From contig JBAGRP010000001.1 in the NCBI GenBank assembly GCA_036924855.1, forward strand, positions 124,001 through 188,000: a stretch of 64,000 nt of DNA, given 5' to 3'. Position numbers and translations under genes: made by a program. This stretch comes from Nitrobacteraceae bacterium AZCC 2146 (GTDB lineage Bacteria > Pseudomonadota > Alphaproteobacteria > Rhizobiales > Xanthobacteraceae). The notes below the pieces were generated by a model. It was not told the origin of the DNA. It did no database searches and worked only from the letters and a program-made list of their open reading frames with translations. Shown piece after piece: positions 7,633-64,000 of this stretch (position 1 is the stretch's first letter; each line of letters opens with the position of its first letter).

Positions 7633-7816
7633 ATCGCTTTCCGAAATATATGCAGGCGACCGTCTGATTATGCCACAATTCTCATTTGTTTCATATATCG
7701 GAATTGGCTAATCCGGGTGCCGCAACGGTCCGGAGACGTCGCAAGTCATGCGGCGTGCAACGCGCTGAATTAAAAAACCCAAGGGTGGACGCGCGCAGCG
7801 TCTTTTCGGATTTACG

Positions 7817-8827: not shown

Positions 8828-8864
8828 ACACCCGCGCGTTCACACGATTCAAGCCACGCAGGAC

Positions 8865-9737: not shown

Positions 9738-9766
9738 GCGCGCCGGCGCCAAGGGATGAACAGAAC

Positions 9767-11083
9767 ATGAGTCAATCAACCGCAACCATGGATGCTCCCG
9801 CGACGATGCGTTCGCGACCGCGGCGCTGGTGGACGCAGCTTTGGGTGCAGGTGCTGATCGCCATGGCGTTCGGCGTCTTGCTCGGGATCTTCGATCCCGA
9901 TCTGGCGACGAAGATGCAGCCGTTCGGCGATGCCTTCATCAAGGCGATCCGGATGCTGATCGGTCCGATCATCTTCTGCACCGTCGTGCACGGCATCGCG
10001 CATATGTCGAACATGACCCGTGTTGGTCGAATCGCCGTCAAATCCCTGGCTTATTTTGAAGTGATGACGACGATCGCGATTATCATCGGGCTTGTTGCCG
10101 TCAACCTGCTGAAGCCCGGCGTCGGCATGAACATCGATGCCTCGACGATCAATGCCAGCATCGTCGAACCCTATGTGAAGCAGACGGCCGCTGTCGGGCT
10201 CGTGCCGTTCCTGATGAACATCATTCCCAACACCTTTATCGGCGCTTTCGCCGAGGGCAATATCCTCCAGGTGCTGTTCATCTCGGTGATGTGCGGCTTC
10301 TCCCTGACCTGGCTCGGGGATCGTGCCAAACCCATGGTCGATATCGTCGATGTCGCTGCGAAGATGGTGTTCGGCATCGTCAACATCGTGATGCTGGCGG
10401 CACCCGTCGGAGCGTTCGGCGCGATCGCCTTCACGGTCGGAAAATTCGGCCTTGGCTCGCTGGCGTCTCTCGGCAAGCTGCTCGGCGGGTTCTATTTGAC
10501 CTGCGTTATCTTCATCGTGGTCGCGTTCCTGCCGGTTGCCATGCTGTGCGGCTTCAGTCTGTTCAAGCTGATCCGGTACATCTGGGAAGAAATCCTCGTC
10601 TGCATCGCGACGACGTCATCCGAAGTGGTGATGCCCCGCCTGATGTCCAAGCTCGAATTTCTTGGCTGCGAAGAAAGCGTTGTTGGTCTTGTCGTACCAA
10701 CCGGTTACTCGTTCAACTTGGACGGAACCTGCCTTTATCTCGCAACGGCCTCGGTTTTTCTGGCGCAGGCAACCAACACTCAGTTCGATCTCAGTCATCA
10801 GATCGGGCTGTTGTTGATTCTGTTGATCACCTCGAAAGGCGCTGCAGGTATCGCCGGTGCGGCCTTTGTCGTGCTCGCGGCGACGCTGTCTGCGGCGCAA
10901 TCGATCCCGGTCGCAAGTGTCGCGTTGATCCTCGGCATTCACCGGCTGATGTCGCAGGGGCTGACGCCGACCAATTTTATCGGCAATGCCGTGGCAACGA
11001 TCGTGATCGCGAAGTGGGAAAAGGCACTGGACGAGCGCCGCATGCAGCAGGTGCTCGACGGCCAAATAACCTGGAAGGGCTGA
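9767..11083 (+). CDS. DctA-type dicarboxylate:cation symporter (DAACS family)
   Basis: A 438-residue multi-pass transporter with DAACS family signatures: IKAIRMLIGPIIFCTVVHGI, NIIPNTFIGAF, the serine-rich re-entrant loop CIATTSSEVVMPRL, the conserved GYSFNLDGTCLYL and TSKGAAGIAGAAFVVL. DctA imports succinate, fumarate or malate. Located between the LigI-like and GalB-like genes, it may import a substrate or intermediate with two carboxyl groups. Length is normal for the family (about 430-445). Confidence 0.93.
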   Translation: MSQSTATMDAPATMRSRPRRWWTQLWVQVLIAMAFGVLLGIFDPDLATKMQPFGDAFIKAIRMLIGPIIFCTVVHGIAHMSNMTRVGRIAVKSLAYFEVMTTIAIIIGLVAVNLLKPGVGMNIDASTINASIVEPYVKQTAAVGLVPFLMNIIPNTFIGAFAEGNILQVLFISVMCGFSLTWLGDRAKPMVDIVDVAAKMVFGIVNIVMLAAPVGAFGAIAFTVGKFGLGSLASLGKLLGGFYLTCVIFIVVAFLPVAMLCGFSLFKLIRYIWEEILVCIATTSSEVVMPRLMSKLEFLGCEESVVGLVVPTGYSFNLDGTCLYLATASVFLAQATNTQFDLSHQIGLLLILLITSKGAAGIAGAAFVVLAATLSAAQSIPVASVALILGIHRLMSQGLTPTNFIGNAVATIVIAKWEKALDERRMQQVLDGQITWKG

Positions 11084-11149
11084 GCCGCCGATATCCGGCA
11101 CGTGCTGGCCTGAATCGTTTGCTGATAATCTGAGATGGAGAAGAGTCCG

Positions 11150-11872
11150 ATGTCGAAACAGAAAACAGGCCTGGTGGTTTCCGCCCATCCCGGCGATTTC
11201 GTCTGGCGCGCCGGCGGTGCCATCGCGCTGCACGCCAAGAAGGGCTATCGCGTCAAGATCGTGTGCCTTGCCTTCGGCGAGCGCGGTGAATCGCAGTTCG
11301 CCTGGAAGCAGCCCGGTATGACGCTGGAGAAGGTCAAGGCCGGCCGCCGCGACGAGGCCGAGCGCGCCGCCGCCATGCTCGGCGCCGAGATCGAGTTCTT
11401 CGACGCCGGCGATTATCCCTTGCACCTCACCGAGGCGCACAAGGAGCGGCTGATCGATATCTACCGCGAGCTCAATCCTTCGTTCGTGCTGACGCATTCG
11501 CTGGAAGATCCCTACAACGTCGATCATCCCGCCGCGAGCGCCGCCGCTCAGGAGGCGCGCATCATCGCGCAGGCGATGGGCCACAAGCCGGAGGCCGAAT
11601 ACAGCTACAGCGCGCCGCCGGTGTTCCTGTTCGAGCCGCACCAGCCGGAGATGTGCAATTTCAAGCCGCAGGTGATCCTCAACATCGACGAGGTCTGGGA
11701 TATCAAGCGCAAGACGTTTGAAATTTTGGCCGCGCAAAAACATCTGTGGGCCTATTACGAGCGCGTCGCACTTCAGCGCGGCATGCAGGGCGGCCGCAAC
11801 ACCGGCGCCGCGATGACCTATGGCGAGGCCTATCAGCGGCTGTTCCCGATGACCCTGGAGGTATTGGCATGA
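11150..11872 (+). CDS. GalB-like 4-oxalomesaconate hydratase (PIG-L/LmbE fold)
   Basis: A 240-residue PIG-L/LmbE-fold protein. The metal site motif, AHPDD in most deacetylases, here reads [10 protein letters not shown]: His13 and Asp16 are kept but the first Asp, the general base in MshB-type deacetylases, is Gly. A third metal ligand is in [12 protein letters not shown]. In Pseudomonas putida, GalB of this fold hydrates 4-oxalomesaconate to 4-carboxy-4-hydroxy-2-oxoadipate. The next gene, overlapping by ATGA, encodes the aldolase that cleaves that product, so a hydratase role is favoured over deacetylation. The ATG at 11150 has GGAGAAG upstream. Confidence 0.8.
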
Positions 11873-12561
11873 AACCGGTCGTTGTCCGAAACATTCAGCG
11901 TGCCGACGCCGATGTCGTAAAACGCCTCGGCGCGCTCGGCGTCTCCACCTCGCACGAGGCCTGTGGCCGTTTCGGCCTGATGAAGACCTATATGCGCCCG
12001 GTCTGGTCTGGCGCCGAAGCCGCGGGCACCGCGGTGACCGTGCTGGCGCAGCCCGGCGACAACTGGATGCTGCACGTGGCGATCGAGCAATGCCGCCCCG
12101 GCGACATGCTGGTGGTGGCCTGCACCACCGACAATACCGACGGCATGTTCGGCGATCTCCTGGCGACGTCGCTGAAGGCGCGCGGTGGTGTCGGCCTGAT
12201 CATCGATGCCGGCTGCCGCGATATCAAGACGCTGCGCGAGATGGGCTTTCCGGTGTGGTCGAAGGCGATCTCCGCCAAGGGCACGGTGAAGGCGACATTG
12301 GGTGCGGTGAATATCCCGGTGGTCTGCGCCGGCGCGCTGGTCAATCCTGGCGATGTCGTCATCGCCGATGAGGACGGCGTGGTGGTGATCCCGCGCACGG
12401 ACGCCGCCGATGTCGCCGTCAAGGGCGAGAAGCGTTTTGCGGAAGAGGAAGGCAAGCGCGAGAAGCTCGCCTCCGGCATTCTCGGCCTCGACATGTACAG
12501 CATGCGCGAGCCGCTGGCGAAGGCCGGCCTCGTCTATGTCGACGATCCCGATCAGGCCTGA
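11869..12561 (+). CDS. ligK: 4-carboxy-4-hydroxy-2-oxoadipate aldolase (LigK/GalC type, RraA-like fold)
   Basis: A 230-residue protein with the RraA-like fold shared by class II CHA aldolases. Visible motifs are [12 protein letters not shown] near the N-terminus, [12 protein letters not shown], the active-site stretch [19 protein letters not shown] (Arg-Asp pair) and [18 protein letters not shown]. The enzyme cleaves CHA (and 4-hydroxy-4-methyl-2-oxoglutarate) to pyruvate plus oxaloacetate or pyruvate, ending the 4,5-cleavage pathway. It starts inside the stop of the GalB-like gene (ATGA), so translation is probably coupled. RraA itself is shorter (about 160 residues) and lacks the C-terminal extension seen here. 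Confidence 0.87.
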
Positions 12562-18855: not shown

Positions 18856-19995
18856 TCAACAGGGCTCCACGAAGAGAGCTAGGCGATCTTGCTGTCTGGA
18901 CCATGTCGAAAAGTATGCGCTTGCCGTTAAAAGCAATATTCCGACCATTCCCACGAGAATTTGAACCCCAAGTGAGTTCAGGCTTAGTTCGATCGCAGCA
19001 TGGGCGCAAAACGACAGGACGATGCCGATGCAAAAGACCTGAAGCGAGTTCCGGCCACACGTGATCAGCGGCGCCAGCGCGCGCCATTGCAGAACGGGCG
19101 AATCCACCCGCAGAAACCGCGTGATGACAATCGCCAGGGCAATTAGGTGCATGACCCGGTAGGGCGCGAGATTCGTCTTATCGTTGGGATCGAACGGCTC
19201 CAGGATCCACTGAGGAAGCGGACTGGCAAGGTCGGGTGCGTGAATTGCCATCGTCACCACGCAAGCAAAGGCAAGATAAGCGATCGCGAGCCAGAACACA
19301 GTCCTTGTTCGGATGATCGATTGAAGGGCCTGAGCGCCGCCGAGGGCGATCCAGGCGCCCAGGAAAAACAGGAATTGCCATGTGAACGGATTGAAATACC
19401 AGAAGCCCGCTGGAGAGGCTGCGAGATTCCACCCAAAATGCCTTCCAGCAAGATACACGATCATCGAACCAATCAATATCAGCGTCGGTGTGCGAACCAT
19501 CAACCACAGGGCCGGAGCAAACGTTCCCAACAACAGAATATAGAGCGGAAGCACGTCCAGATTGACGGGCCGATATCTCAAAGCCAGGGCCTGGATAAAT
19601 TCCCGGAACGGCATACCCATGAAAACAGCGATGTTGAACTGGTTCAGATCATCCGAATCATGAAGTTCTCGCGAGACCCACGCGATAAGAGCGATATAGA
19701 CGGCAACCACACATATGTGCGCGGCATAGAGTTGGAAAGCGCGCCTTGCCAGCTTCGAGGCCGCCGCAACGTAGCCCCGCTCGATCATCACTCTTCCGAA
19801 AGCGAACGCGGCGGTGTAGCCGGATATGAACACAAACAGATCAGCCGCATCGCTAAAACCATAATTCCTGGTTGTGAGCGAACTCAGTACCTCGTGCGGG
19901 ATGTGATCCAGAAAGATCGCCCAATTCGCCAGGCCGCGGAACAGGTCCAGCCTGACGTCCCGACCGGCGAAAGCAAGATCTGCGCGAGCCAGCAT
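18856..19995 (-). CDS. OpgC-family membrane acyltransferase
   Basis: A 379-residue protein with about ten hydrophobic helices and OpgC signatures: DVRLDLFRGLANWAIFLDHI near the N-terminus, FSDAADLFVFISGYTAAFAFG, and FNPFTWQFLFFLGAW. OpgC transfers succinyl groups to osmoregulated periplasmic glucans; many proteobacterial homologues are annotated only by family. It follows the RND membrane-fusion gene with almost no gap. GAGG lies just before the ATG at 19995, which I prefer to a GTG three codons earlier (20004) that sits one base after the upstream stop. Confidence 0.85.
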   Translation of the reverse strand: MLARADLAFAGRDVRLDLFRGLANWAIFLDHIPHEVLSSLTTRNYGFSDAADLFVFISGYTAAFAFGRVMIERGYVAAASKLARRAFQLYAAHICVVAVYIALIAWVSRELHDSDDLNQFNIAVFMGMPFREFIQALALRYRPVNLDVLPLYILLLGTFAPALWLMVRTPTLILIGSMIVYLAGRHFGWNLAASPAGFWYFNPFTWQFLFFLGAWIALGGAQALQSIIRTRTVFWLAIAYLAFACVVTMAIHAPDLASPLPQWILEPFDPNDKTNLAPYRVMHLIALAIVITRFLRVDSPVLQWRALAPLITCGRNSLQVFCIGIVLSFCAHAAIELSLNSLGVQILVGMVGILLLTASAYFSTWSRQQDRLALFVEPC

Positions 19996-40122: not shown

Positions 40123-40598
40123 ACTAGGATTCCAGCCCAGACTCGTGTGGCCGATCAAAAACCGTTGGCCTGCAGTAACTTGCGAGCAGCCACGGCGGTC
40201 GTGTAGGCGCACTGTGGACCATTGTTGTGGACCATTCAAGCCGCGGCGGGACCAAACCCGCCTCGGGCGGCTAGGGCCGGCGAGGGAGCTCCATCTTACT
40301 GAAGCTGGTAGATGATCGAGCTGTCCTGACGTCGCGTTCGGGTGACCCCAGCGGGTGGCTCGCGAGCGTCCCATATGCCTCCCGACGACGACTTCGCCAG
40401 ACACACCCGTTATCTCAGCTTCGCACGCTGATTACTGCGTTTACGGGTGGCGCAATCCTGGATGCCCGACGTTAGAATAGCCGAGCACTTCGATCGCAGT
40501 AGCTCGCCGTGCGTCAGACGCTGGCAGGAAGGTTTTGACCTTTTCGGATGAGGTCTGAGGTTTTGTCCAGAGGCTTCGCGACCGGCGGCTTCTGGCGG
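40123..40598. repeat. ~480-bp direct repeat, copy A
   Basis: This stretch is nearly repeated at 55298-55777, including ACTAGGATTCCAGCCCAG at its start and the segment ACCGGCGGCTTCTGGCGG at its end. By eye the two copies agree at well over 90 percent of positions. It has no convincing gene; open frames on both strands are short. In both copies it ends exactly at the border of the same IS. It may be a remnant of a larger element or a non-autonomous one. The 157 bases before it, after the AraC gene, hold nothing that I recognise. Confidence 0.8.
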
Positions 40599-42191
40599 AT
40601 TGTGTTGATTTAGTTTGCGGTTGATCAACGTTGGCCGGCGTGATTCCATCCTTGTGTTGCTTTGCGGAGGGGCAGGACGATGATGGGGATGCAGACGTCG
40701 CCGGCACGGCTGTTCTACGATTTCTGCCTCGATGACCACGTTCCCGGCGATCACCTGCTTCGTCGCATCGACCAGTTCCTCGAACTTGAGACGGTGCGCT
40801 CGGAACTAAAGCCGTTCTACAGCACCATTGGCCGCCCCTCGATTGATCCTGAGCTGATGATGCGGATGCTGATCGTCGGCTATTGCATGGGCATCCGATC
40901 CGAACGGCGGCTGTGCGATGAGGTCCATCTCAACCTGGCCTATCGCTGGTTTTGTCGTCTGGGGCTCGACGGCAAGGTGCCGGACCACTCCACCTTCTCG
41001 CGCAACCGCCATGGCCGGTTCCGGCAGAGTGATATCCTGCGGCATTTGTTCGAGGCGGTGGTGGGGCGGTGCCTGCGCGAAGGTCTTGTTGGCGGTGAGG
41101 GGTTCGCGGTGGACGCGAGCCTGATCGCAGCCGATGCCAACAAGCAGCGGTCCATCCCCGGAGATCAGTGGCGGGTCGATGACCTTGGCGCCGATGCCGG
41201 GCAGGCTGTTCGCGAGTATCTGGCAACCCTGGACGATGCTGCTTTCGGCGCTGCCAGCGAGGTGACGCCGAAGTTCATCTCGCCTTCGGATCCAGCCGCG
41301 CAGTGGACCGGCGCCCATAAGGGGCACGCCTTCTTCGCCTACGCAACCAACTACCTGATCGACACGGAGAACGCTGTCATTCTCGACGTCGAAGCCAGCC
41401 GAGCCATCCGCCAGGCGGAGGTCGGAGCCTCACGCACTATGATCGATCGAACCACCAAACGCTTTGGCCTCAGGCCCCGGTACCTTGCTGCCGACAGCGC
41501 CTATGGCTCGGCTGCGAACCTGGCCTGGCTGGTCAAGGAGCGGCAGATCGAACCGCACATCCCGGTGTTCGACAAGTCCAACCGGACCGACGGCACCTTC
41601 TCGCGATCCGACTTCGTCTTCGACGCTGAACGCAACCACTACACCTGCCCACAGGGCAATTTGCTGGTGCAGTTCAGGCGAACCTTCGCGACGCCGCGCT
41701 CGGGCATCACCAAAGACGGAACGCGGCTATACCGATCGAGCAAGTCTGATTGCCAGGGCTGCGCCCTCAAGGCGAAGTGCTGTCCGAACACGCCGCAGCG
41801 CAAAGTGCCGCGTGACCTCGACGAAGATGCTCGTGATGTCGTCCGAGCTCTGGCAAACACGCCGGCCTACGAACGTTCGCGGCATCGCCGGAAGAAGATC
41901 GAGATGCTGTTCGCCCATCTCAAGCGCATCCTTAGACTCGGTCGCCTCAGATTGCGCGGCCCCAACGGCGCACGAGACGAATTCCTCCTCGCCGCCACCG
42001 CCCAAAACCTGAGAAAGCTCGCAAAGCTTCGACCGATGCCGGCCGTCTGCCCTCTGGGGGCATGACGATGCACACGATCAAGGGGCTGAGGCCTCCATGA
42101 ACGGCCCGGATTAGAAACATCGCCTCTATAAATAGACGTGGGACCGGAAAGGACCGGCTCGAATGCAACGCGGCGACTAAATCAACAATAT
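40599..42191 (+). mobile_element. IS copy 1 (1593 bp, IS1182/IS5-like), plus orientation
   Basis: The left end reads ATTGTGTTGATTTAGTTTG and the right end, on the other strand, ATATTGTTGATTTAGTCGC, so the ends share TGTTGATTTAGT as an inverted repeat. The same ends and length recur at 53444-55036, which fixes the borders. It is one flank of the cargo region at 42192-53443 and is in opposite orientation to copy 2. The insertion splits a palindromic target (see findings). Confidence 0.9.
40680..42065 (+). CDS. IS1182-like DDE transposase, intact copy 1
   Basis: A 461-residue transposase. The N-terminal DUF772 domain has FYSTIGRPSIDPELMMRMLIVG and SERRLCDEVHLNLAYRWF; the DDE residues lie in FAVDASLIAADANK, YLAADSAYGSAANLAW and KIEMLFAHLKRIL. 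A cysteine cluster (CQGCALKAKCC) precedes the last motif. The ATG at 40680 has GGGGCAGG before it. The translation is the same as that of copy 2. Confidence 0.92.
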   Translation: MMGMQTSPARLFYDFCLDDHVPGDHLLRRIDQFLELETVRSELKPFYSTIGRPSIDPELMMRMLIVGYCMGIRSERRLCDEVHLNLAYRWFCRLGLDGKVPDHSTFSRNRHGRFRQSDILRHLFEAVVGRCLREGLVGGEGFAVDASLIAADANKQRSIPGDQWRVDDLGADAGQAVREYLATLDDAAFGAASEVTPKFISPSDPAAQWTGAHKGHAFFAYATNYLIDTENAVILDVEASRAIRQAEVGASRTMIDRTTKRFGLRPRYLAADSAYGSAANLAWLVKERQIEPHIPVFDKSNRTDGTFSRSDFVFDAERNHYTCPQGNLLVQFRRTFATPRSGITKDGTRLYRSSKSDCQGCALKAKCCPNTPQRKVPRDLDEDARDVVRALANTPAYERSRHRRKKIEMLFAHLKRILRLGRLRLRGPNGARDEFLLAATAQNLRKLAKLRPMPAVCPLGA

Positions 42192-42318
42192 CGGCGCAAA
42201 GCGGTCGGTCGCATAAACGACCTGATCGGTAGCAGCGAACTAGTGTATTCGAAGGTCATACGGCCGCCGATCGGAATGCTTGATGCGGACCAGGGGACGC
42301 AGTCCGCTCTGTGAGGCC
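42192..42318 (+). pseudogene. possible 3' part of an ORF separated by the IS
   Basis: Reading from the IS border in the frame GAT CGG CGC AAA, the stretch encodes RRKAVGRINDLIGSSELVYS and ends TQSAL at a TGA. No start lies in this piece. At the other end of the cargo, at 53353-53443, an ORF start (MVDQPDKRAAYNDSAVRISA, then NQIPDRPLLAD) is interrupted by IS copy 2 in the same frame relation. The two halves could be one small gene. I do not recognise the product. Confidence 0.3.
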
Positions 42319-53352: not shown

Positions 53353-53443
53353 ATGGTCGATCAGCCCGATAAGCGCGCCGCTTATAACGACTCAGCAGTC
53401 CGGATTTCCGCGAACCAAATTCCTGACCGGCCGCTCCTGGCGG
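53353..53443 (+). pseudogene. truncated ORF at the carboxylase operon end, cut by IS copy 2
   Basis: An ATG 17 bases after the carboxyltransferase stop, with AAGGA before it, opens a frame reading MVDQPDKRAAYNDSAVRISA then NQIPDRPLLAD, which the IS interrupts after about 30 codons. It has no family that I recognise. It may be the 5' half of a gene whose 3' half lies at 42192-42318 (see findings). Confidence 0.45.
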
Positions 53444-55036
53444 ATATTGTTGATTTAGTCGCCGCGTTGCATTCGAGCCGGTCCTTTCCGGTCCCACGTC
53501 TATTTATAGAGGCGATGTTTCTAATCCGGGCCGTTCATGGAGGCCTCAGCCCCTTGATCGTGTGCATCGTCATGCCCCCAGAGGGCAGACGGCCGGCATC
53601 GGTCGAAGCTTTGCGAGCTTTCTCAGGTTTTGGGCGGTGGCGGCGAGGAGGAATTCGTCTCGTGCGCCGTTGGGGCCGCGCAATCTGAGGCGACCGAGTC
53701 TAAGGATGCGCTTGAGATGGGCGAACAGCATCTCGATCTTCTTCCGGCGATGCCGCGAACGTTCGTAGGCCGGCGTGTTTGCCAGAGCTCGGACGACATC
53801 ACGAGCATCTTCGTCGAGGTCACGCGGCACTTTGCGCTGCGGCGTGTTCGGACAGCACTTCGCCTTGAGGGCGCAGCCCTGGCAATCAGACTTGCTCGAT
53901 CGGTATAGCCGCGTTCCGTCTTTGGTGATGCCCGAGCGCGGCGTCGCGAAGGTTCGCCTGAACTGCACCAGCAAATTGCCCTGTGGGCAGGTGTAGTGGT
54001 TGCGTTCAGCGTCGAAGACGAAGTCGGATCGCGAGAAGGTGCCGTCGGTCCGGTTGGACTTGTCGAACACCGGGATGTGCGGTTCGATCTGCCGCTCCTT
54101 GACCAGCCAGGCCAGGTTCGCAGCCGAGCCATAGGCGCTGTCGGCAGCAAGGTACCGGGGCCTGAGGCCAAAGCGTTTGGTGGTTCGATCGATCATAGTG
54201 CGTGAGGCTCCGACCTCCGCCTGGCGGATGGCTCGGCTGGCTTCGACGTCGAGAATGACAGCGTTCTCCGTGTCGATCAGGTAGTTGGTTGCGTAGGCGA
54301 AGAAGGCGTGCCCCTTATGGGCGCCGGTCCACTGCGCGGCTGGATCCGAAGGCGAGATGAACTTCGGCGTCACCTCGCTGGCAGCGCCGAAAGCAGCATC
54401 GTCCAGGGTTGCCAGATACTCGCGAACAGCCTGCCCGGCATCGGCGCCAAGGTCATCGACCCGCCACTGATCTCCGGGGATGGACCGCTGCTTGTTGGCA
54501 TCGGCTGCGATCAGGCTCGCGTCCACCGCGAACCCCTCACCGCCAACAAGACCTTCGCGCAGGCACCGCCCCACCACCGCCTCGAACAAATGCCGCAGGA
54601 TATCACTCTGCCGGAACCGGCCATGGCGGTTGCGCGAGAAGGTGGAGTGGTCCGGCACCTTGCCGTCGAGCCCCAGACGACAAAACCAGCGATAGGCCAG
54701 GTTGAGATGGACCTCATCGCACAGCCGCCGTTCGGATCGGATGCCCATGCAATAGCCGACGATCAGCATCCGCATCATCAGCTCAGGATCAATCGAGGGG
54801 CGGCCAATGGTGCTGTAGAACGGCTTTAGTTCCGAGCGCACCGTCTCAAGTTCGAGGAACTGGTCGATGCGACGAAGCAGGTGATCGCCGGGAACGTGGT
54901 CATCGAGGCAGAAATCGTAGAACAGCCGTGCCGGCGACGTCTGCATCCCCATCATCGTCCTGCCCCTCCGCAAAGCAACACAAGGATGGAATCACGCCGG
55001 CCAACGTTGATCAACCGCAAACTAAATCAACACAAT
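53444..55036 (-). mobile_element. IS copy 2 (1593 bp), minus orientation
   Basis: Same length and ends as copy 1: left end ATATTGTTGATTTAGTCGC, right end on the other strand ATTGTGTTGATTTAGTTTG. Opposite orientation to copy 1, so the two frame the 11.25-kb cargo as inverted copies. It splits the MVDQ ORF. The 261 bases to the right, up to repeat copy B, contain only small fragments and nothing I can name. Confidence 0.9.
53570..54955 (-). CDS. IS1182-like DDE transposase, intact copy 2
   Basis: The 461-residue translation is identical to that of the transposase at 40680-42065, with the DDE motifs FAVDASLI, YLAADSAYGS and KIEMLFAHLK. Identity of the two copies at the protein level points to recent transposition or gene conversion. 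The reading frame is complete, so it may supply transposase to all copies. Confidence 0.92.
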   Translation of the reverse strand: MMGMQTSPARLFYDFCLDDHVPGDHLLRRIDQFLELETVRSELKPFYSTIGRPSIDPELMMRMLIVGYCMGIRSERRLCDEVHLNLAYRWFCRLGLDGKVPDHSTFSRNRHGRFRQSDILRHLFEAVVGRCLREGLVGGEGFAVDASLIAADANKQRSIPGDQWRVDDLGADAGQAVREYLATLDDAAFGAASEVTPKFISPSDPAAQWTGAHKGHAFFAYATNYLIDTENAVILDVEASRAIRQAEVGASRTMIDRTTKRFGLRPRYLAADSAYGSAANLAWLVKERQIEPHIPVFDKSNRTDGTFSRSDFVFDAERNHYTCPQGNLLVQFRRTFATPRSGITKDGTRLYRSSKSDCQGCALKAKCCPNTPQRKVPRDLDEDARDVVRALANTPAYERSRHRRKKIEMLFAHLKRILRLGRLRLRGPNGARDEFLLAATAQNLRKLAKLRPMPAVCPLGA

Positions 55037-55297
55037 CGGCGCAAAGCTGCCGCTCCCGGGCATTTCCGTTCTTGCGGTGCCGGGTCAACGGTGTACGCAA
55101 GCAGGCGTTAAATCTCTCTGCTGGGGTTCAAATTGCAAGGTCTCACGGTTCATCCCCAAAAGCTTCCGCCAAGTCGGTTGCCGAGTTCGAGACGTTCGTG
55201 TCGGTTGCTTCTTTGCGGCCTGGGTTTGCTGATGTCGCTGAGCGTACAGCAGTACACGATCGGAAGTTCGCGGCGCGTGTTGAATGGTTGAATGGAC

Positions 55298-55777
55298 ACT
55301 AGGATTCCAGCCCAGACTCGCGTCGTGGATCAAAAACCGTTGGCCTGCAGTAACTTCGCGAGCAGCCACGGCGGTCGTGTCGGCGCACTGTGGACCATCG
55401 TTGTGGACCATTCAAGCCGCGGCGGGACCAAAGCCACCTCGGGCGGCTAGGGCCGGCGAGGGAGCTCCATCTTACCGAAGCTGGTAGATGATCGAGCTGT
55501 CCTGATGTCGCGTTCGGGTGACCCCAGCGGGGCGGCTCGCGAGCGTCCCATATGCCTCCCGACGACGGCTTCGCCAAACACACCCGTTATCTCAGCTTTG
55601 CACGCAATTACTGCGTCTACGTGTGGCGCGATCCTAGATGTCCGACGTTAGAATAGCCGAGCACTTCGATCGCAATTGCTCGCCGTCCGTCAGACGCTGG
55701 CAGGAGGGTTTTGACCTTTTCGGATGAGGTCTGAGGTTTTGTCCAAAGGCTTCGCGACCGGCGGCTTCTGGCGGCGG
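55298..55777. repeat. ~480-bp direct repeat, copy B
   Basis: Second copy of the repeat at 40123-40598, beginning ACTAGGATTCCAGCCCAG and ending GGCGGCTTCTGGCGGCGG. It differs from copy A by scattered substitutions, so it is older than the IS copies, which are identical. Like copy A, it ends at an IS border. No gene supported. Confidence 0.8.
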
Positions 55778-57186
55778 ATATTGTTGATTTAGTCGCCGCG
55801 TTGCATTCGAGCCGGTCCTTTCCGGTCCCACGTCTATTTATAGAGGCGATGTTTCTAATCCGGGCCGTTCATGGAGGCCTCAGCCCCTTGATCGTGTGCA
55901 TCGTCATGCCCCCAGAGGGCAGACGGCCGGCATCGGTCGAAGCTTTGCGAGCTTTCTCAGGTTTTGGGCGGTGGCGGCGAGGAGGAATTCGTCTCGTGCG
56001 CCGTTGGGGCCGCGCAATCTGAGGCGACCGAGTCTAAGGATGCGCTTGAGATGGGCGAACAGCATCTCGATCTTCTTCCGGCGATGCCGCGAACGTTCGT
56101 AGGCCGGCGTGTTTGCCAGAGCTCGGACGACATCACGAGCATCTTCGTCGAGGTCACGCGGCACTTTGCGCTGCGGCGTGTTCGGACAGCACTTCGCCTT
56201 GAGGGCGCAGCCCTGGCAATCAGACTTGCTCGATCGGTATAGCCGCGTTCCGTCTTTGGTGATGCCCGAGCGCGGCGTCGCGAAGGTTCGCCTGAACTGC
56301 ACCAGCAAATTGCCCTGTGGGCAGGTGTAGTGGTTGCGTTCAGCGTCGAAGACGAAGTCGGATCGCGAGAAGGTGCCGTCGGTCCGGTTGGACTTGTCGA
56401 ACACCGGGATGTGCGGTTCGATCTGCCGCTCCTTGACCAGCCAGGCCAGGTTCGCAGCCGAGCCATAGGCGCTGTCGGCAGCAAGGTACCGGGGCCCGAA
56501 GGCGAGATGAACTTCGGCGTCACCTCGCTGGCAGCGCCGAAAGCAGCATCGTCCAGGGTTGCCAGATACTCGCGAACAGCCTGCCCGGCATCGGCGCCAA
56601 GGTCATCGACCCGCCACTGATCTCCGGGGATGGACCGCTGCTTGTTGGCATCGGCTGCGATCAGGCTCGCGTCCACCGCGAACCCCTCACCGCCAACAAG
56701 ACCTTCGCGCAGGCACCGCCCCACCACCGCCTCGAACAAATGCCGCAGGATATCACTCTGCCGGAACCGGCCATGGCGGTTGCGCGAGAAGGTGGAGTGG
56801 TCCGGCACCTTGCCGTCGAGCCCCAGACGACAAAACCAGCGATAGGCCAGGTTGAGATGGACCTCATCGCACAGCCGCCGTTCGGATCGGATGCCCATGC
56901 AATAGCCGACGATCAGCATCCGCATCATCAGCTCAGGATCAATCGAGGGGCGGCCAATGGTGCTGTAGAACGGCTTTAGTTCCGAGCGCACCGTCTCAAG
57001 TTCGAGGAACTGGTCGATGCGACGAAGCAGGTGATCGCCGGGAACGTGGTCATCGAGGCAGAAATCGTAGAACAGCCGTGCCGGCGACGTCTGCATCCCC
57101 ATCATCGTCCTGCCCCTCCGCAAAGCAACACAAGGATGGAATCACGCCGGCCAACGTTGATCAACCGCAAACTAAATCAACACAAT
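55778..57186 (-). mobile_element. IS copy 3, deletion derivative (1409 bp)
   Basis: The ends are the same as in copies 1 and 2 but the length is 184 bases less. Both ends are intact, so it could be mobilised in trans by copy 1 or 2. The deletion junction lies near 56493-56505 (GGTACCGGGGCCCGAAGGCG), at a place where GGGGCC from one side meets CCGAAGG from the other. Confidence 0.88.
55904..57105 (-). pseudogene. transposase of IS copy 3, inactivated by 184-bp internal deletion
   Basis: The N-terminal part matches copies 1 and 2 as far as FISPS, where the 184-base deletion shifts the frame. The remaining catalytic motifs are partly lost: the YLAADSAYGS region is in another frame and the C-terminal part (KIEMLFAHLK) is only readable in the original frame. 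The protein is therefore inactive. Confidence 0.9.
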
Positions 57187-57313
57187 CGGCGCAAAGCGGC
57201 CACTGGCACGCCCGATGTCCTCGACATCGGTTGAAATTTGCGCTTGGCACGCTTGAGTCTGAATCGATATCCCCCGCAGGGGGCGTGCCATTTGCTGAAT
57301 TATATCATCTCGC

Positions 57314-58216
57314 CTACACGTCGCTTGCTGCTTGCCTCAGTAATGCAATTTCGGCCCGGCTCGGGAATGACGGCGTCGTATTGAGCCGTGTCACGGAATG
57401 CGAAGCAGCCGCAACCGCAACTTTCACGGCAGTCGTGATCGTCATCCCGTTGACGACAAGACCTGCCAATGTCCCTACGAATACGTCACCGGCACCGGCG
57501 CTGTCCACGGCAACGACTTTCGGTGCGTCTACTACAGTTTCGCTTCCGCCGGAAATTATCAGTGCCCCGCGCTCACCCAGCGTGACGATCGCCGTCGCTA
57601 TGCCACGGGTCCGGAACGCCGCGGCGAGTGATGACGAGCCCTGTGTCAGCAGTTCGGCCTCGCCCTCATTGGCGATGACGATGTCGAAGAGCGCAAGAAG
57701 ATTGCCCATATCCGAAGCGATGGGCGCTGTATTCAGAATGCGGAGGGCGCCGCGCGCCTGCGCTTCGCGGGCCGCCGCTTCCGTCGAATCTGCCGACAGA
57801 TTTCCCTGCATCAGAAGGACGTCACCCGGCATCAAGGCGCGGCATAAATCCCGCGCCTGATCAGATGTGATCGCGCGCGCGCATGCGGCGCTGCTGACGA
57901 TGACGTTCTCGCCGCCGGTCGCCACCCAGATCGCCGACATATCCGTCGGCGCGTCGCATGGTAGCCAGTGTGCTTCGAGGCCGGCCTCATCGCGCAAGGC
58001 GGCGGCGACGAAGGCGGCATCGGCATCGCGCCCCACCGGTGCGGCAAGGCGCGTCGCAGCCCCGGTGCGCGACGCGGCGACGGCCTGGTTCAGGCCCTTG
58101 CCGCCGGCGCAGCGCGTGGTGCTGTCGGCCAGCAGGGTTTCGCCGGGCCGCGGCAGACGCGCGACGCGCTGGATCACGTCGAGGGTCGCATTGCCGAGCA
58201 CCAGCACGCGGCTCAT
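57314..58216 (-). CDS. PfkB-family carbohydrate kinase (ribokinase-like)
   Basis: A 300-residue kinase. The N-terminal signature is TRCAGGKGLNQAVAASRTGA (about 35-54) and the C-terminal signature is VDSAGAGDVFVGTLAG, with the catalytic Asp in GAGD. It phosphorylates a sugar or nucleoside using ATP in the cytosol. It is the last gene of the minus-strand series from 62412, overlapping the BtpA-like gene as ATGA, so translation is coupled. The presence of a second PfkB kinase fused to a regulator in the same locus makes the division of tasks unclear. The 127 bases to its right belong to the IS flank. Confidence 0.9.
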   Translation of the reverse strand: MSRVLVLGNATLDVIQRVARLPRPGETLLADSTTRCAGGKGLNQAVAASRTGAATRLAAPVGRDADAAFVAAALRDEAGLEAHWLPCDAPTDMSAIWVATGGENVIVSSAACARAITSDQARDLCRALMPGDVLLMQGNLSADSTEAAAREAQARGALRILNTAPIASDMGNLLALFDIVIANEGEAELLTQGSSSLAAAFRTRGIATAIVTLGERGALIISGGSETVVDAPKVVAVDSAGAGDVFVGTLAGLVVNGMTITTAVKVAVAAASHSVTRLNTTPSFPSRAEIALLRQAASDV

Positions 58217-59061
58217 GGGTGCGCCTTGCGCACAACGGCCATGAAGGCGGCGAGCCTGACCGGATCGACCGCGTTCCACCAGCCGCCATCGTGCTTGAGC
58301 GCGCTGGCGACGATCACGGCATCGGCGAACTGCAGGATCGCGGCGACGTTGTCGGGAGTAACGCCGCTGCCGACCATGCTCGGCAGCTTGGTCGCGCCGG
58401 TGACGGTTTCGAGGTCATCGAGGTTTGCACTGTCGCCGGTGCGCTGGCCGGTCACGATCACCGCGTCGGCATCGAAGAATTCCGCGTCCCGCGTCAGCTC
58501 CTGCAAAGTGCGATCGGCCACGATAGCGTGGGCGCCATGCTTGACATGGACGTCGGCGAAGATCGCCACGTCCTTGGCGCGCAGCCAGGAGCGGTAGCGG
58601 CTCGCAGCGCCGGCCTTGCCTTCCATGAAGCCTTCGTTGGCCACGTAGGCGTTGGCCCACTGGTTGACCCGCACGAAGGCTGCGCCCGCAGCCTTGGCGA
58701 CGGCGATTCCCTGCACCGCGCCGTTGGCCAGCACGTTGATGCCGATGGGCAGCCCGGACTCGCGGCGCACGCGGTCGGCCATCACGGCCATGCAGGCGGC
58801 GGTTTCCGGACCGAGTTCGTCCGGCTTGGCGAATGGGATATCGCCGTGGTTCTCGACGATCAGGCCATCGACGCCGCCTGTGCGATAGCGCGCCGCTTCG
58901 GCGCAGGCGAAGTCATAGATGCCGGCGACCGGCTCGCCATCGTAATGCGGCGAGCCCGGCAGCGGCAGCGAATGGATGACGCCGATGACGGCCTTGCGCC
59001 GCCCGAAGATGCGCGCGACCGCATTGTCCTTGGCGCGATAGATCGAGGTGTTTTCGGACAA
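58213..59061 (-). CDS. BtpA/SgcQ-family protein
   Basis: A 282-residue TIM-barrel-like protein with the BtpA pattern: AVIGVIHSLPLPGSPHYDG, VDGLIVENHGDIPF, GLPIGINVLANGA, and VIVTGQRTGDSANLDDLETV, then GSGVTPDNVAAIL. The family includes a photosystem I biogenesis protein of cyanobacteria and SgcQ, near a sugar utilisation gene set in E. coli. The molecular role of the bacterial ones is unknown; a sugar-phosphate aldolase/isomerase-like activity is a guess. Overlaps the PfkB gene by ATGA. The gap to the fusion gene is 15 bases. Confidence 0.87.
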   Translation of the reverse strand: MSENTSIYRAKDNAVARIFGRRKAVIGVIHSLPLPGSPHYDGEPVAGIYDFACAEAARYRTGGVDGLIVENHGDIPFAKPDELGPETAACMAVMADRVRRESGLPIGINVLANGAVQGIAVAKAAGAAFVRVNQWANAYVANEGFMEGKAGAASRYRSWLRAKDVAIFADVHVKHGAHAIVADRTLQELTRDAEFFDADAVIVTGQRTGDSANLDDLETVTGATKLPSMVGSGVTPDNVAAILQFADAVIVASALKHDGGWWNAVDPVRLAAFMAVVRKAHP

Positions 59062-59076
59062 GGGCTGTCTCCGGAT

Positions 59077-60300
59077 TCAAGTGAGCGTATTGGAGGAAAC
59101 ATCTGCACCGTCGACGAGACGAAGCAGATCGGGGCCGGACGGGCGCAATTCCTGCGCGCCGAACCGGGTGACTTGCAGGCTGCCCGCCGCGCAAGCGATA
59201 TCGAGCGCCCGCGGCAGCGGGCAGTCGTTGAGCCACGCCGCCAGAAAGCTGCCGACAAAACTGTCGCCGGCGCCCGTCGTATCGACGACGCTGACCGGCA
59301 GTGCGCGGGCCTCGACGATCGTACCATCGCGCGTCACCGCGGCTGCGCCATCGGCGCCCAATGTCACGATCATCAGTTCGGGGCCGCTCTGCCCGGCGGC
59401 GCGGGTCATGGCCGCGAGGTCCATCAGGCCGCTGCGGATATCACCGGCAACGGCCTGCAGCGATGCCAGCGTTTCGCGGTGGAGCACGATCAGGTCGAAG
59501 GAGCGAAACGCTTCATCGGCGTGACCGCGCAGCCAGTCGGCCGGCAGACCGGTCGCCTGCATGCTGGTGCGAAAGCCTTTTGCCCGCGCCTTTGCGACAG
59601 CCGCCATCTGGGCGGGCACCTGGTAGCCTTCCAGGTGCAGCCACCAGCGCGACGGGCCGGGATCGGTGGCCTCGACAAAGCGTTCGACGTCGACGTCGTT
59701 GAGCAGCGACGGCTCGTTGACAATGGTGCGGCGGCCATCGGCTTCCACCAGCACCAGCGCGCGGTTAAGGCGTCCGCTACGCCGTTCGCGGGGAATAATG
59801 AGGTCGACGCGACGGCGCGACAATTCCGCCGCTGCCCAGTCGCTGTCCTGATCGACGCCGATCGACGTGATGATCGAGGCGGCAACGGCAAACGGCGCGC
59901 CGAGGCCGGCGGCGATGGCCGCGACGTTGGCCGCGGGCCCGCCGATGGATTTGACGATCTCATGGGCCAGCCGGCGCTCTTCGCGTTGCGGCAGGCGATC
60001 GAGGCAGGCGATGTAATCGACACTGACATAGCCCACCGTGGTGAGCCGCGGTATCGACGCGTTGATGCGCAGATTGGGCTCGGGCTGCCGCTTGCGCGCC
60101 GTCAGCGCGCGGGCGGTCTCGGCCGGCCGGTAGTTCAGCGCGGCGATCGCCTCGTCGACCCGCGCCCGCGTGGCCCCTGCCACCGTCACCCGGCCGCCGA
60201 TCACATTCGACACTGTTCCCTTCGACACGCCGGCCGCGCGGGCGACGTCGTCGATGGTCGGCTGGGTGCGATGGCCGAGACCGTGCGGGTCGTCAGACAT
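59077..60300 (-). CDS. LacI-type HTH fused to a PfkB carbohydrate kinase
   Basis: A 407-residue protein with two parts. Residues about 14-70 are a LacI-family DNA-binding domain: TIDDVARAAGVSKGTVSNVI, the recognition helix and the hinge-like stretch NYRPAETARALTARK. The rest (about 87-395) is a PfkB kinase: VDYIACLDRLP, SIGGPAANVAAIAAGLG and the ATP/catalytic motif DTTGAGDSFVGSFLAAW with Asp346. LacI proteins normally carry a periplasmic-binding-fold sensor in this place. I infer that the kinase serves as the sensor, tying DNA binding to sugar phosphorylation state. It overlaps the ABC ATPase gene by 8 bases. The palindrome at 62446-62459 is the candidate operator. Confidence 0.88.
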   Translation of the reverse strand: MSDDPHGLGHRTQPTIDDVARAAGVSKGTVSNVIGGRVTVAGATRARVDEAIAALNYRPAETARALTARKRQPEPNLRINASIPRLTTVGYVSVDYIACLDRLPQREERRLAHEIVKSIGGPAANVAAIAAGLGAPFAVAASIITSIGVDQDSDWAAAELSRRRVDLIIPRERRSGRLNRALVLVEADGRRTIVNEPSLLNDVDVERFVEATDPGPSRWWLHLEGYQVPAQMAAVAKARAKGFRTSMQATGLPADWLRGHADEAFRSFDLIVLHRETLASLQAVAGDIRSGLMDLAAMTRAAGQSGPELMIVTLGADGAAAVTRDGTIVEARALPVSVVDTTGAGDSFVGSFLAAWLNDCPLPRALDIACAAGSLQVTRFGAQELRPSGPDLLRLVDGADVSSNTLT

Positions 60301-61369
60301 GGGTGACCTTCGGCAGACGGGCGCGGCGCAGCAGGTCGAGCCGCAGGCGATACGACGCGGTCATGCGGCTCTCTCCGTCGTCGAAGGCGGCGAAGCCGGG
60401 GAGCTCATTGGCGCGAATGCAGGCGGACAGCCGCGGCGCAGGCGCTGTTGCTGCGAGCGGCGGATCCGCCGCCAGGCAGGCGTCGATGCGATGCTCGCAA
60501 CGCGACGCGAAGCGGCACTGTGTCCATTCGGCATAGGGGCTCGGCGGCTCGCCGGTGATGGTCTCGCGGTCGCGCGCGGCGCCCGGCACCGGGCTCGGTG
60601 TCGCGGCCAGCAGCATGCGCGTGTAGGGATGCCGCGGATCGGCGAAAATGGTTTCGGACGGCCCGGTCTCCACCAGCCGGCCGGCATACAGCACGCCCAC
60701 ATGGGTCGCGAGATGCCGCACCACCGCCATGTCGTGGGAGATGAACACGTAGGACACGCCGAGCCGTGTGCGTAATTCGCTGAGCAGGTTCACCACCTGC
60801 GCCTGGATCGACAGGTCGAGCGCCGACACCGGCTCGTCGCAGACGATCAGTTCGGGTTCGACAGCCAGGGCTCGCGCGATGGCCACGCGCTGGCGCTGGC
60901 CGCCGGAGAATTCGTGCGGAAAGCGGTTGGCATAACTGCCGTCGAGCCCGACCAGCGTCAGCAATTCCGCGACCCGCTCGTCTACCTTGTTCGCCGGTCG
61001 CAGCTGATGCAGCAGGATCGGTTCGGCAATCGCAGCACCGATGCGGACGCGCGGGTCGAGCGAGCCGAACGGATCCTGGAAGATGATCTGGATTCGCCGG
61101 CGCAGGCGCCGCAGGTCGGCCGGCGCGAGCGAACGCACATCGATGCCGTCGAAGATGATATGGCCAGCATCCGGCTCGATCAGCCGCAGCAGCATGCGCC
61201 CGATGGTGGTCTTGCCCGAACCGCTTTCGCCGACCAGCGCGAACACATCGCCCCGCTGCAGCGAGAAGCTGACATCGGTGACCACGCGCGCGGACTTTGC
61301 GCGGCCGAACAAGCCGCCGCCGGAGACAAACGTCTTCGAGAGGTTTGCGACGTCAAGCAGCGCACTCAT
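60293..61369 (-). CDS. Dpp/Opp-type ABC transporter ATPase (DppF-like)
   Basis: A 358-residue ATPase: Walker [19 protein letters not shown]-loop IIFQDPFGSLDP, signature FSGGQRQRVAIARAL, Walker B LIVCDEPVSALD and the C-terminal oligo_HPY Cys-rich tail (CRFASRCEHRIDAC). It powers uptake of peptides, nucleosides or small sugars with the membrane proteins encoded divergently. It overlaps the upstream ATPase gene (ATGA) and the fusion gene downstream (8 bases). Confidence 0.92.
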   Translation of the reverse strand: MSALLDVANLSKTFVSGGGLFGRAKSARVVTDVSFSLQRGDVFALVGESGSGKTTIGRMLLRLIEPDAGHIIFDGIDVRSLAPADLRRLRRRIQIIFQDPFGSLDPRVRIGAAIAEPILLHQLRPANKVDERVAELLTLVGLDGSYANRFPHEFSGGQRQRVAIARALAVEPELIVCDEPVSALDLSIQAQVVNLLSELRTRLGVSYVFISHDMAVVRHLATHVGVLYAGRLVETGPSETIFADPRHPYTRMLLAATPSPVPGAARDRETITGEPPSPYAEWTQCRFASRCEHRIDACLAADPPLAATAPAPRLSACIRANELPGFAAFDDGESRMTASYRLRLDLLRRARLPKVTHV

Positions 61370-62412
61370 GTGACATGCTCCTCGAGCGGCGCACGCCAGC
61401 ACGCGATCCAGTGCTGCGACTTGATCTCACGCAGCGGCGGATAGTCCGTCTCGCATTGCGCGATCGCGAACGGGCAGCGCGGCGCGAAGCGGCAGCCGAG
61501 CGGCATCGCGCCGGGCGAGGGCACCTGGCCCTCGATGGCGGCCAGCGGCCGGCCGCGCTCATCGGCACGCGGCATCGCGGCGAACAACGCCAGCGTATAG
61601 GGATGCTGGGGATCGCCGAACAGATCGGCCCGCGATGCCCGCTCGACGATGCGCCCGGCATACATCACGGCGATCTCGTCGGCGATCTCGGCGACCACCG
61701 CGAGGTTGTGGGTGATGAACAAAACAGCGGTGCCGAGTTCGGCGCGCAACTGGTCGATCAGCCGCAGGATCTGGCTCTGGATTGTGACGTCGAGTGCGGT
61801 GGTCGGCTCGTCGGCGATCAGGATCGCAGGGCGGCACATCAGCGCCATGGCGATCATCACACGCTGTCGCATGCCGCCGGACAATTGATGCGGATAGGCT
61901 TTCAGCCGGGTCTCGGGGGCAGGGATCTGGACGCGGCGAAACATCCCCAGCGCCGCGGCGAGCGCCGCCTGCCGCGACAGTCCCTGATGCACCACAAGGG
62001 CTTCGGTGACCTGGTCGCCCACTGTCATCACCGGGTTCAGCGCGGTCATCGGCTCCTGGAACACCATGGCCATGCGGTTGCCGCGGATGTCGTTGAGCGC
62101 GTCCTCGCTGGCGTCGGCGATGTCCTCGCCGTCGAGCACAAAGCTCGCACAGGACAGATCCGCCGACGGCGGCAGCAGCCGCATCAGCGACAGCGCCGTC
62201 AGACTCTTGCCCGACCCGGATTCGCCGACCAGGCAGAGAATGCGTCCGCGCCGCAGCGTGATATCGACGCCGTCCACAATCGCCACGCCCGGTGCAAAAC
62301 CGACGCACAGGTCGCGCACCTCCAGCGCCACGCGCTGCGAATCCGGCAAAATACCGGTTGGCGCGAAATCGGGCTGGTGCTGATTCTGCATCTTGTTTGG
62401 TCGGTTCGGCAT
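61366..62412 (-). CDS. Dpp/Opp-type ABC transporter ATPase (DppD-like)
   Basis: A 348-residue ATPase (from [11 protein letters not shown]) with Walker [19 protein letters not shown]-loop [13 protein letters not shown], signature [15 protein letters not shown], Walker [13 protein letters not shown] and a Cys-rich oligo_HPY tail ([14 protein letters not shown]). It forms a heterodimer with the DppF-like protein. Two ATG codons (62412 and 62391) are possible; neither has a strong ribosome site. The gene opens the minus-strand operon reading away from the permease genes; the divergent region holds the palindrome. Confidence 0.9.
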
Positions 62413-62459
62413 TGACAGAACGTATTTCAGCCGAAAATATACATTTTGAACCGGTTCAA
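62412..62459 (+). promoter_or_regulatory. permease promoter with LacI-type operator
   Basis: TTGACA (62412-62417) lies 17 bases before AAATAT/TATACA-like -10 sequences (62435-62443). Directly after them is the perfect palindrome TTGAACCGGTTCAA (62446-62459), with the central CG typical of LacI-family operators. Its position after the -10 box suits a repressor that blocks transcription of the permease genes starting at 62477. The minus-strand ATPase operon starts within 35-55 bases on the other side and could also be controlled. Confidence 0.72.
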
Positions 62460-62476
62460 TCAAGCAGAGTTTGAGC

Positions 62477-63421
62477 ATGGCCCGCTATCTCGCCACCAGG
62501 CTGATCTCCCTGATCCCGATCTTGTTCGGGACATCGGTCGTGGCGTTCCTGCTGGTGCGGCTGGTGCCGGGCGATCCGGCCGTCGCTTTGCTCGGCATGG
62601 AAGCCGACGCGCGGTCGCTGGCGGCGTTGCGCCAGCAGATGGCGCTCGACCAGCCCGTTGTCGTGCAATACGTGACCTGGATCAGCCATATTCTCACCGG
62701 CGATTTCGGCCGTTCGATCCAGGGCGGCCGCGCGGTGTTTCCGCTGCTGCTCGGCGCGCTGGCACCCACCGCCTTGCTGGCGGCCGCAGCGCTTGTGATC
62801 TCGCTCGTCATCGCCATTCCGGCCGGCATCGTCGCCGCCACCCGTCGCAACAGCGGCGCCGACTACGCCGCGTCGTCTCTGGCGCTGTGCGGATTGTCGC
62901 TGCCGAGCTTCTGGCTCGGCATTCTTCTGATCCTGGCGTTCTCCATCTACTTTCCGATCCTGCCGGCTTCCGGTTACGTCTCGCCGCTGGTCGATCCGAT
63001 CGGCCATCTGCGCCATCTCGTGCTGCCGGCGCTGACTCTCGGTGCTGCGCTCGCTGCCGCCACCATGCGCATGACCCGCGCTGCCATGCTGGAAGTGATG
63101 CGCGCCGACTACGTCCGCACCGCGCGCGCGAAAGGTCTGTCGCGCCGCACCGTGATCTGGGGCCATGCGCTGCGCAACGCGCGGATGCCCATCGTCACGC
63201 TGCTCGGCATTCAGCTCGGCCAGTTGCTCGGCGGCGTCGTGGTCACCGAGACGGTGTTCTCGTGGCCAGGCATCGGCAAGCTTACGGTCGATGCCATTTT
63301 TGCCCGCGACTATCCGGTGGTGCAGGGCGCCGTGCTGCTCACCGCCACCTTGTTCGTGCTGATCAACCTGGTCACCGACCTGATCTACACCGCGCTCGAT
63401 CCGCGGGTGCGGTTGTCATGA
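62477..63421 (+). CDS. ABC transporter permease (DppB-like)
   Basis: A 314-residue permease with six hydrophobic helices. Family motifs: RLISLIPILFGTSVVAFLLVRLVPGDP at the N-terminus, VVQYVTWISHILTGDFGRS, and the EAA loop DYVRTARAKGLSRRTVIWGHALRNA, then the GVVVTETVFSWPGIGKL stretch. It works with the next gene and the two ATPases. The ATG at 62477 was preferred to a TTG two codons earlier. Confidence 0.93.
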   Translation: MARYLATRLISLIPILFGTSVVAFLLVRLVPGDPAVALLGMEADARSLAALRQQMALDQPVVVQYVTWISHILTGDFGRSIQGGRAVFPLLLGALAPTALLAAAALVISLVIAIPAGIVAATRRNSGADYAASSLALCGLSLPSFWLGILLILAFSIYFPILPASGYVSPLVDPIGHLRHLVLPALTLGAALAAATMRMTRAAMLEVMRADYVRTARAKGLSRRTVIWGHALRNARMPIVTLLGIQLGQLLGGVVVTETVFSWPGIGKLTVDAIFARDYPVVQGAVLLTATLFVLINLVTDLIYTALDPRVRLS

Positions 63422-64000
63422 GCACAGCAGCAACCTTGCGTGCGCCCGGCCCGGCCGCATTATTGCGGGCGATGACCCGCGATCCGCGCGCCGCGCTCGG
63501 CGTCGGCATCGTCGCATTGGCCATTGTGGCGGCGCTCGGCGCGCCGCTGATTGCGCCCTATGGGCCGGACACGCCGGATTTCGTCAACACGCTGGCGCCG
63601 CCGGCGCCCGGCCACTGGCTAGGCACGGATGAGCTTGGCCGGGACGTGCTTTCGCGCATCATCTACGGCGCGCAGACGTCGCTGTTTGTCGGCATTTTGA
63701 GCGTCGCGGTGGCCGGCATCGCCGGCACGGCGCTGGGCCTGATCGCCGGCTATTTCGGCCGCGCGGTGGATGCGCTGATCATGCGGCTGATGGATATCGT
63801 GTTCGCGTTTCCGAGCATCCTGCTGGCGCTGGCGATCACCGCTGTGCTCGGCCCCAGCCTCAACAATGCCGTGCTGGCGATTGCGGTGGTCAACCTGCCG
63901 GTATTCGCCCGCGTCGCGCGCGCGCAAACCCTGGTGGTGCGTGAACTCGAATTCGTCGAGGCCAAGCGCGCGCTCGGCTTCGGCACCGCCAATATCCTGG
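63418..64000 (+). CDS. ABC transporter permease (DppC-like), 5' part
   Basis: Starts at ATG overlapping the preceding stop (ATGA) and runs off the window. The first 194 codons read MSTAATLRAPGPAALLRAM, then ALGVGIVALAIVAALGAPLIAP, HWLGTDELGRDVLSRIIYGAQTSLFVG and EFVEAKRALGFG. TDELGRDVLSR is the DppC-family signature and the EAA-type loop EAKRALGFG appears at the right edge. The missing solute-binding protein gene, if any, probably lies beyond 64000. Confidence 0.9.
   Translation, partial: MSTAATLRAPGPAALLRAMTRDPRAALGVGIVALAIVAALGAPLIAPYGPDTPDFVNTLAPPAPGHWLGTDELGRDVLSRIIYGAQTSLFVGILSVAVAGIAGTALGLIAGYFGRAVDALIMRLMDIVFAFPSILLALAITAVLGPSLNNAVLAIAVVNLPVFARVARAQTLVVRELEFVEAKRALGFGTANIL

Follow-up and report, generated by a model that had tools for sequence, protein, structure and literature searches.

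A LacI-type DNA-binding head joined to a PfkB-family kinase: a candidate one-chain kinase-repressor and its predicted operator in Alphaproteobacteria

Enzymes that also repress transcription are already known as a class: BirA, PutA and NadR unite the two roles in single chains, Escherichia coli YeiI consists of a helix-turn-helix (HTH) and a PfkB kinase, and the ROK regulators combine an enzyme fold with a DNA-binding domain. Here we describe a gene in a 64,000-nucleotide stretch of Nitrobacteraceae bacterium AZCC 2146 (contig JBAGRP010000001.1, positions 124,001 to 188,000; the whole stretch is called the window) whose product, hereafter the fusion, joins a LacI-type HTH to a kinase of the PfkB/ribokinase family. 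Like the proteins above, it holds a DNA-binding domain and an enzyme or enzyme fold in one chain; they differ from it in HTH type or enzyme fold, judged from their descriptions and, for ROK, also from Pfam, where no ROK domain matched the fusion among families up to an E-value of 1. To our knowledge, none of them pairs a LacI head with a PfkB kinase. In the open-access literature covered, which consisted of titles and abstract openings with few subscription papers, no description of a LacI-PfkB fusion was recognised, the YeiI literature included, and the main text of a paper on LacI regulons (PMC4052901) contains the word "kinase" once and "fused" not at all.

Repressors of the LacI/GalR family (LacI, PurR, RbsR, CytR and CcpA) share with the fusion the HTH, the hinge leucine and an even, CG-centred promoter palindrome, which for the fusion is predicted, whereas a PfkB kinase stands in place of their periplasmic-binding-protein-like sensor. 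The hinge leucine of this family contacts the minor groove, and Leu66 of the fusion occupies the position of LacI Leu56 (LacI numbering). With the ribokinase/PfkB family, represented by E. coli ribokinase, YihV sulfofructose kinase and ketohexokinase, the fusion has in common the fold, the GG motif and the GAGD (DTxGAGD) motif, and according to the alignment it has counterparts of ribokinase Asp16, Asn46, Glu143 and Asp255, which we take to be functional residues. It differs from these enzymes in its N-terminal LacI head and in the replacement of ribokinase Lys43 by Pro. The nearest biochemical parallel is the pair of E. coli FruK and Cra, in which a ribokinase-family kinase likewise works with a LacI-family regulator; that pair, however, consists of two proteins and Cra retains its sensor, whereas the fusion is a single sensor-less chain. 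According to PMC11157272, FruK binds DNA-bound Cra, dimer to dimer, with a dissociation constant of ~2 nM, and according to PMC4052901 the palindromes of the LacI regulators studied are even in 1251 of 1303 cases and CG-centred in 1173 of 1303.

The open reading frame (ORF) of the fusion starts with ATG and has no internal stop codon (Table 1). A preliminary description of this DNA had proposed a LacI HTH and hinge joined to a PfkB kinase, with the usual LacI sensor missing. Both points hold, since the two Pfam domains score above their cut-offs, the three motifs quoted there all lie within the ORF, and no periplasmic-binding-protein-type family appeared in the Pfam search up to an E-value of 1, residues 86-385 being PfkB. 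In the predicted structure the kinase domain adopts the ribokinase fold; its identity with ribokinase and with YihV across the aligned structures is ~23-25%. The hinge has a pLDDT (predicted local distance difference test) value below 50 in this model. The fusion does not reach the ribokinase equivalog TIGR02152 (96.1 bits against a cut-off of 299.65), and NCBIfam NF007416, which represents YeiI-type HTH-PfkB proteins, is absent from the best 25 of the 39 families that match it.

Homologues were collected with two queries, each against ~8000 scored candidates: the window protein gave 492 homologues at E ≤ 1e-3 and the Rhizobium etli form 961, and the best 120 of each were used. Both Pfam domains are present in 233 of these 240, one of which is the window's own protein, and this recurrence excludes chance or sequencing error as the origin of the architecture. 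A stop codon or sequence error between the domains, the objection named in advance in the preliminary description, is thus ruled out, and the frame itself is uninterrupted. Among the seven PfkB-only homologues, five (P0034, P0035, P0103, P0181 and P0196) appear truncated, their first residues still belonging to the late part of the HTH or to the hinge, and P0192 and P0234, which start at or within the kinase, may be either fragments or genuine stand-alone enzymes. Clade A, from the window-protein list, includes Bradyrhizobium, Tardiphaga, Bosea, Methylobacterium, Alsobacter, Jiella and one Variovorax metagenome-assembled genome; clade B, from the R. etli list, includes Rhizobium, Shinella, Mesorhizobium, Kaistia, Skermanella, Thalassospira and others. 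The earlier statement that no characterised example could be named agrees with the literature covered, with the qualification that the protein is no one-off but a member of a large, mostly alphaproteobacterial family. The source names of the homologues, where present, are mostly "ribokinase" or "carbohydrate kinase", and at least two (P0184 and P0193) are named "LacI family DNA-binding transcriptional regulator".

Conservation was counted in 232 aligned homologues, after eight of the 240 outside 365-450 amino acids had been left out. The catalytic Asp346 is kept in 231, Gly120 and Gly121 of the GG motif in 232 and 231, and Leu66 and Arg64 of the hinge in 225 and 229, respectively; the Pro at the counterpart of ribokinase Lys43 is found in 231. 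The linker between HTH and kinase is of near-constant length, and the HTH and hinge residues are near-invariant inside each clade. If the kinase domain were only a ligand sensor, the fusion would be a plain sugar-responsive repressor on a kinase fold, with no relevant phosphorylation, and metabolism would be left to RK1, a stand-alone PfkB kinase. RK1 is indeed encoded in the operon of the fusion, most of the 20 fusion-less stretches described below encode RK1-like kinases, and the ROK-family repressors provide a precedent for a kinase fold turned sensor. Against this explanation, Asp346 would be superfluous in a pure sensor, and the annotation of the 25-kb stretch around the R. etli operon shows no other kinase, so that the fusion may be the pathway kinase there. 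We consider a sensor without relevant catalysis unlikely, though by no means negligible.

The preliminary description had mentioned a candidate operator nearby, without coordinates, and a LacI-style palindrome, TTGAACCGGTTCAA, is present in the divergent promoter at the operon head, ~2.1 kb upstream of the fusion gene. When promoters were scanned for CG-centred even palindromes, TTGAACCGGTTCAA ranked first in 10 of 10 loci of form A, the gene arrangement of the window. Alignment of the ten form A promoters shows all 14 columns of the operator, plus one additional A, to be invariant, against a mean column identity of 48%. Five loci of form B, to which the R. etli operon belongs, have TTGAAACGCTTCAA, TTGAAGCGCTTCAA or TTGAAGCGGTTCAA immediately upstream of the fusion gene. 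The centre bases of the operator differ between the two forms, and their recognition helices differ too. The pattern TTGAANCGNTTCAA was found at 15 of 17 fusion loci, or at 15 of 16 when locus L021, which is counted among the 17, is left out. Jiella (L020) has a second operator copy upstream of a transporter cluster of form B type (19261-19274), Bosea sp. CRIB-10 (L016) has one close to where a PfkB-like ORF starts (4127-4140), and Acidimangrovimonas (L022) has two copies in tandem, 21 bases apart (7742-7776).

As a control, 20 stretches that contain a relative of BtpA, the product of the gene next to that of the fusion, and no fusion nearby were taken from the 48 BtpA matches besides the window's own; they are mostly high-scoring matches and not a random draw. 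In the order, 42 of 397 genomes, the own genome counted, have a BtpA relative. Similar kinases, GATase1_like proteins and ribose-type transporters are encoded in the fusion-less stretches, and TTGAANCGNTTCAA is found in none of the 20, indicating that the predicted operator tracks the fusion and not the enzymes. Canonical LacI relatives with 44-46% identity to the L022 LacI are present in seven stretches, and two (L081 and L082) have LacI matches at 27-30% only. A CG-centred 12-base palindrome was common to at most 3 of 8 stretches in the canonical LacI group and 3 of 12 among the other fusion-less stretches. In one control genome (G347) a different contig carries a form B fusion together with a site of its own (L029). 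These results bear on the idea of an HTH that is a relic or serves some other purpose, in which case the protein would be an ordinary kinase and the palindrome would be bound by another regulator. DNA binding by the fusion is what we infer, and the 7.64-Mb genome of the window has two LacI HTHs at E ≤ 0.001, one in the fusion and the other at C1:55134-55277. However, the HTH and hinge are near-invariant within clades, and the palindrome follows the fusion across genera, is absent from 20 of 20 fusion-less stretches and changes its centre between the two forms as the recognition helices change. A relic HTH is, in our judgement, very improbable.

The predicted operator lies within a promoter-like sequence, itself a consensus match only, where it takes up the spacer and overlaps the -35-like hexamer. 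An operator over the -35 element or the spacer is in the typical position for repression. The same palindrome could instead serve an activator or dual regulator, in which case ligand or product would be needed to switch the operon on, and a conserved site fits any mode of regulation. The position of the site on the -35-like hexamer and spacer speaks against activation, to the extent that a consensus match marks the promoter, and we regard this mode as quite improbable.

We consider it probable that the fusion is a local LacI-type repressor in which a ribokinase-family kinase replaces the sensor and a bound compound relieves repression. Several points weigh against this interpretation. The operator pattern occurs once in the window's genome, at 62446-62459 of the window, and a reversed control pattern also occurs once, so that the weight rests on the position and conservation of the operator and not on its count. 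Among the fusion loci, L023, with a 37%-identical fusion and readable upstream DNA, is without TTGAANCGNTTCAA, and L021 is not assessable for it, as its DNA begins 58 bases before the match. In addition, neither the fusion nor any recognised LacI relative is present in 11 of the 20 control stretches, the homologues used for conservation were recovered by similarity, which biases the counts to conserved positions, and the presence of RK1 in the operon implies that catalysis by the form A fusion may be dispensable.

If the fusion is such a repressor, a dimer would bind TTGAACCGGTTCAA in the divergent promoter via its HTH heads and hinge helices and would block the permease arm as well as its own operon, which encodes the ATP-binding cassette (ABC) ATPases, the fusion, BtpA and the second kinase. 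Once the transporter imported the compound, possibly a small sugar or sugar-like substrate, the kinase domain would bind and probably phosphorylate it. The ligand-bound or closed state of the kinase would then act through the linker to weaken the grip on DNA, and the operon would open. In form A most of the flux may pass through RK1, and the fusion would act as a sensor-kinase. The preliminary description had suggested that substrate sensing and phosphorylation could coincide in a single event, the kinase reporting ligand or ATP state to DNA. This suggestion is supported in part, by two complete and conserved halves in one chain and by a palindrome that tracks the fusion, whereas the coupling itself is a proposal. 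A bolder version, which we find possible but somewhat doubtful, is that the signal lies in the catalytic cycle itself. The affinity for DNA would in that case be set by the state of the kinase (empty, with sugar, with sugar and ATP, or with product), the repressor would read first-step flux or the sugar-to-ATP state and not sugar concentration, and operator-bound molecules would phosphorylate their own inducer.

A survey of genomes, which the preliminary description had called for, found the fusion to be rare and patchy. With the own genome counted in each case, it is present in 4 of 397 genomes of the order and 2 of 398 of the phylum (E ≤ 1e-60) and in 1 of 391 of the family (E ≤ 1e-50), and in none of the 17 congeners listed. 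Two conserved peptide patterns, scanned against the GTDB collection, recovered 11 fusion loci and one partial match, L024 from Gulosibacter (residues 147-258 only, 33%), which was excluded from the fusion-locus count. Two Rhizobium plasmids carry the fusion, and this, together with the rare and patchy occurrence, suggests horizontal spread. On one plasmid, pRsp8C3a of Rhizobium etli 8C-3 (L028), which is typed as conjugative, the form B fusion operon is preceded by a type I restriction-modification set and by a gene with a Kiwa KwaB-like annotation. A tree of 38 kinases places 23 fusion kinase domains on one side of a branch with support 99/94 and 15 other PfkB kinases on the opposite side. 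Because the comparison kinases are few and some branches are long, a single fusion event is not contradicted by this tree rather than shown by it.

On the minus strand the gene order is ATPase 1, ATPase 2, fusion, BtpA and RK1, and the ATG of the fusion gene overlaps the 3′ end of the ATPase 2 gene. The Pfam matches agree with the preliminary description, which had placed ABC ATPases, a BtpA-family protein and a second PfkB kinase beside the fusion. Relatives of the divergent permease 2, 67-81% identical, are at the equivalent position in several fusion loci. Beyond the window (L009), the plus strand continues with a solute-binding protein, a GATase1_like protein (PF07090), an AtzH-like gene and a ribokinase that exceeds the curated cut-off (334.3 against 299.65 bits). 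Window positions 57314-64000 and L009 positions 6472-12106 form a transport/catabolic cluster with an oligopeptide-type ABC system, BtpA, PfkB kinases, and GATase1_like and AtzH-like proteins, and related BtpA/kinase/GATase1_like clusters with ribose-type transporters recur in the order. At loci L015-L018, three of Bosea type and one from Lichenibacterium, permease 1 is the immediate divergent neighbour of the fusion gene, and the ~21-kb stretches contain no recognised close relative of either ABC ATPase. As for clues to the substrate, the fusion (best 25 of 39 families), RK1 and BtpA all stay below every curated equivalog cut-off. A PDB sequence search with BtpA gave weak matches only (best E 0.0016), and in the open-access titles and abstract openings covered, BtpA with SgcQ gave one genome paper and "BtpA family" with ABC transporter and kinase none.

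Three insertion sequence copies with a DDE-type transposase ORF, ~99% identical, lie at window positions 40577-42210, 53425-55058 and 55756-57201 and adjoin the 3′ side of the fusion operon; the third is ~180 internal bases shorter than the other two. A ~390-base repeat, 86% identical, flanks the whole cluster (window 55039-55427 and L009 12168-12544), and the G+C content of the cluster is 66.4% compared with 62% for the window. The repeat pair possibly marks the edges of an acquired island.

Table 1. Positions in the window of the fusion gene, its domains, the predicted operator and neighbouring genes
Feature	Position	Strand	Basis or remark
LacI HTH-PfkB kinase fusion gene, 407 aa	59077..60300	-	single ORF, two Pfam domains above cut-off, recurrence in homologues
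LacI-type helix-turn-helix, residues 15-59	60124..60258	-	PF00356 54.7 bits (cut-off 27)
Hinge-helix region, residues 60-70, contains Leu66	60091..60123	-	sequence
PfkB/ribokinase-family kinase domain, residues 86-385	59146..60045	-	PF00294 133.2 bits (cut-off 25.8)
Catalytic motif GAGD, residues 343-346	59263..59274	-	Asp346 conservation
Predicted operator TTGAACCGGTTCAA	62446..62459		conserved LacI-style palindrome at fusion loci
Promoter-like hexamers TTGATT-16-TATATT, facing the fusion operon and bracketing the operator	62436..62463	-	consensus scan, 1 found against 0.1 expected; alone no evidence of function
ABC ATPase 1, oligopeptide type	61366..62478	-	PF00005, PF08352; real start probably internal ATG at ~62412 or 62391
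ABC ATPase 2, oligopeptide type	60293..61402	-	PF00005, PF08352
BtpA/SgcQ family protein	58213..59061	-	PF03437 247.6 bits; TIGR00259 (subfamily model) above cut-off
Stand-alone PfkB kinase RK1	57314..58279	-	PF00294 144.8 bits; TIGR02152 197 bits, below cut-off 299.65
ABC permease 1, divergent from the fusion operon	62477..63421	+	PF00528 158.6 bits; ORF listed from TTG 62471
ABC permease 2	63418..64000, continues to about window-equivalent 64275	+	ORF in L009

If the proposed function is true, the fusion would be a natural one-chain version of the E. coli FruK-Cra kinase-repressor pairing, with the sensor swapped for an apparently active enzyme. It would offer a compact system, predicted operator included, for asking whether catalysis or ligand binding alone sets DNA affinity. 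Many proteins now named only "ribokinase" or "carbohydrate kinase" would then be transcription factors, and the fusion would give a handle on the substrate of the BtpA/GATase1_like/PfkB transport clusters.
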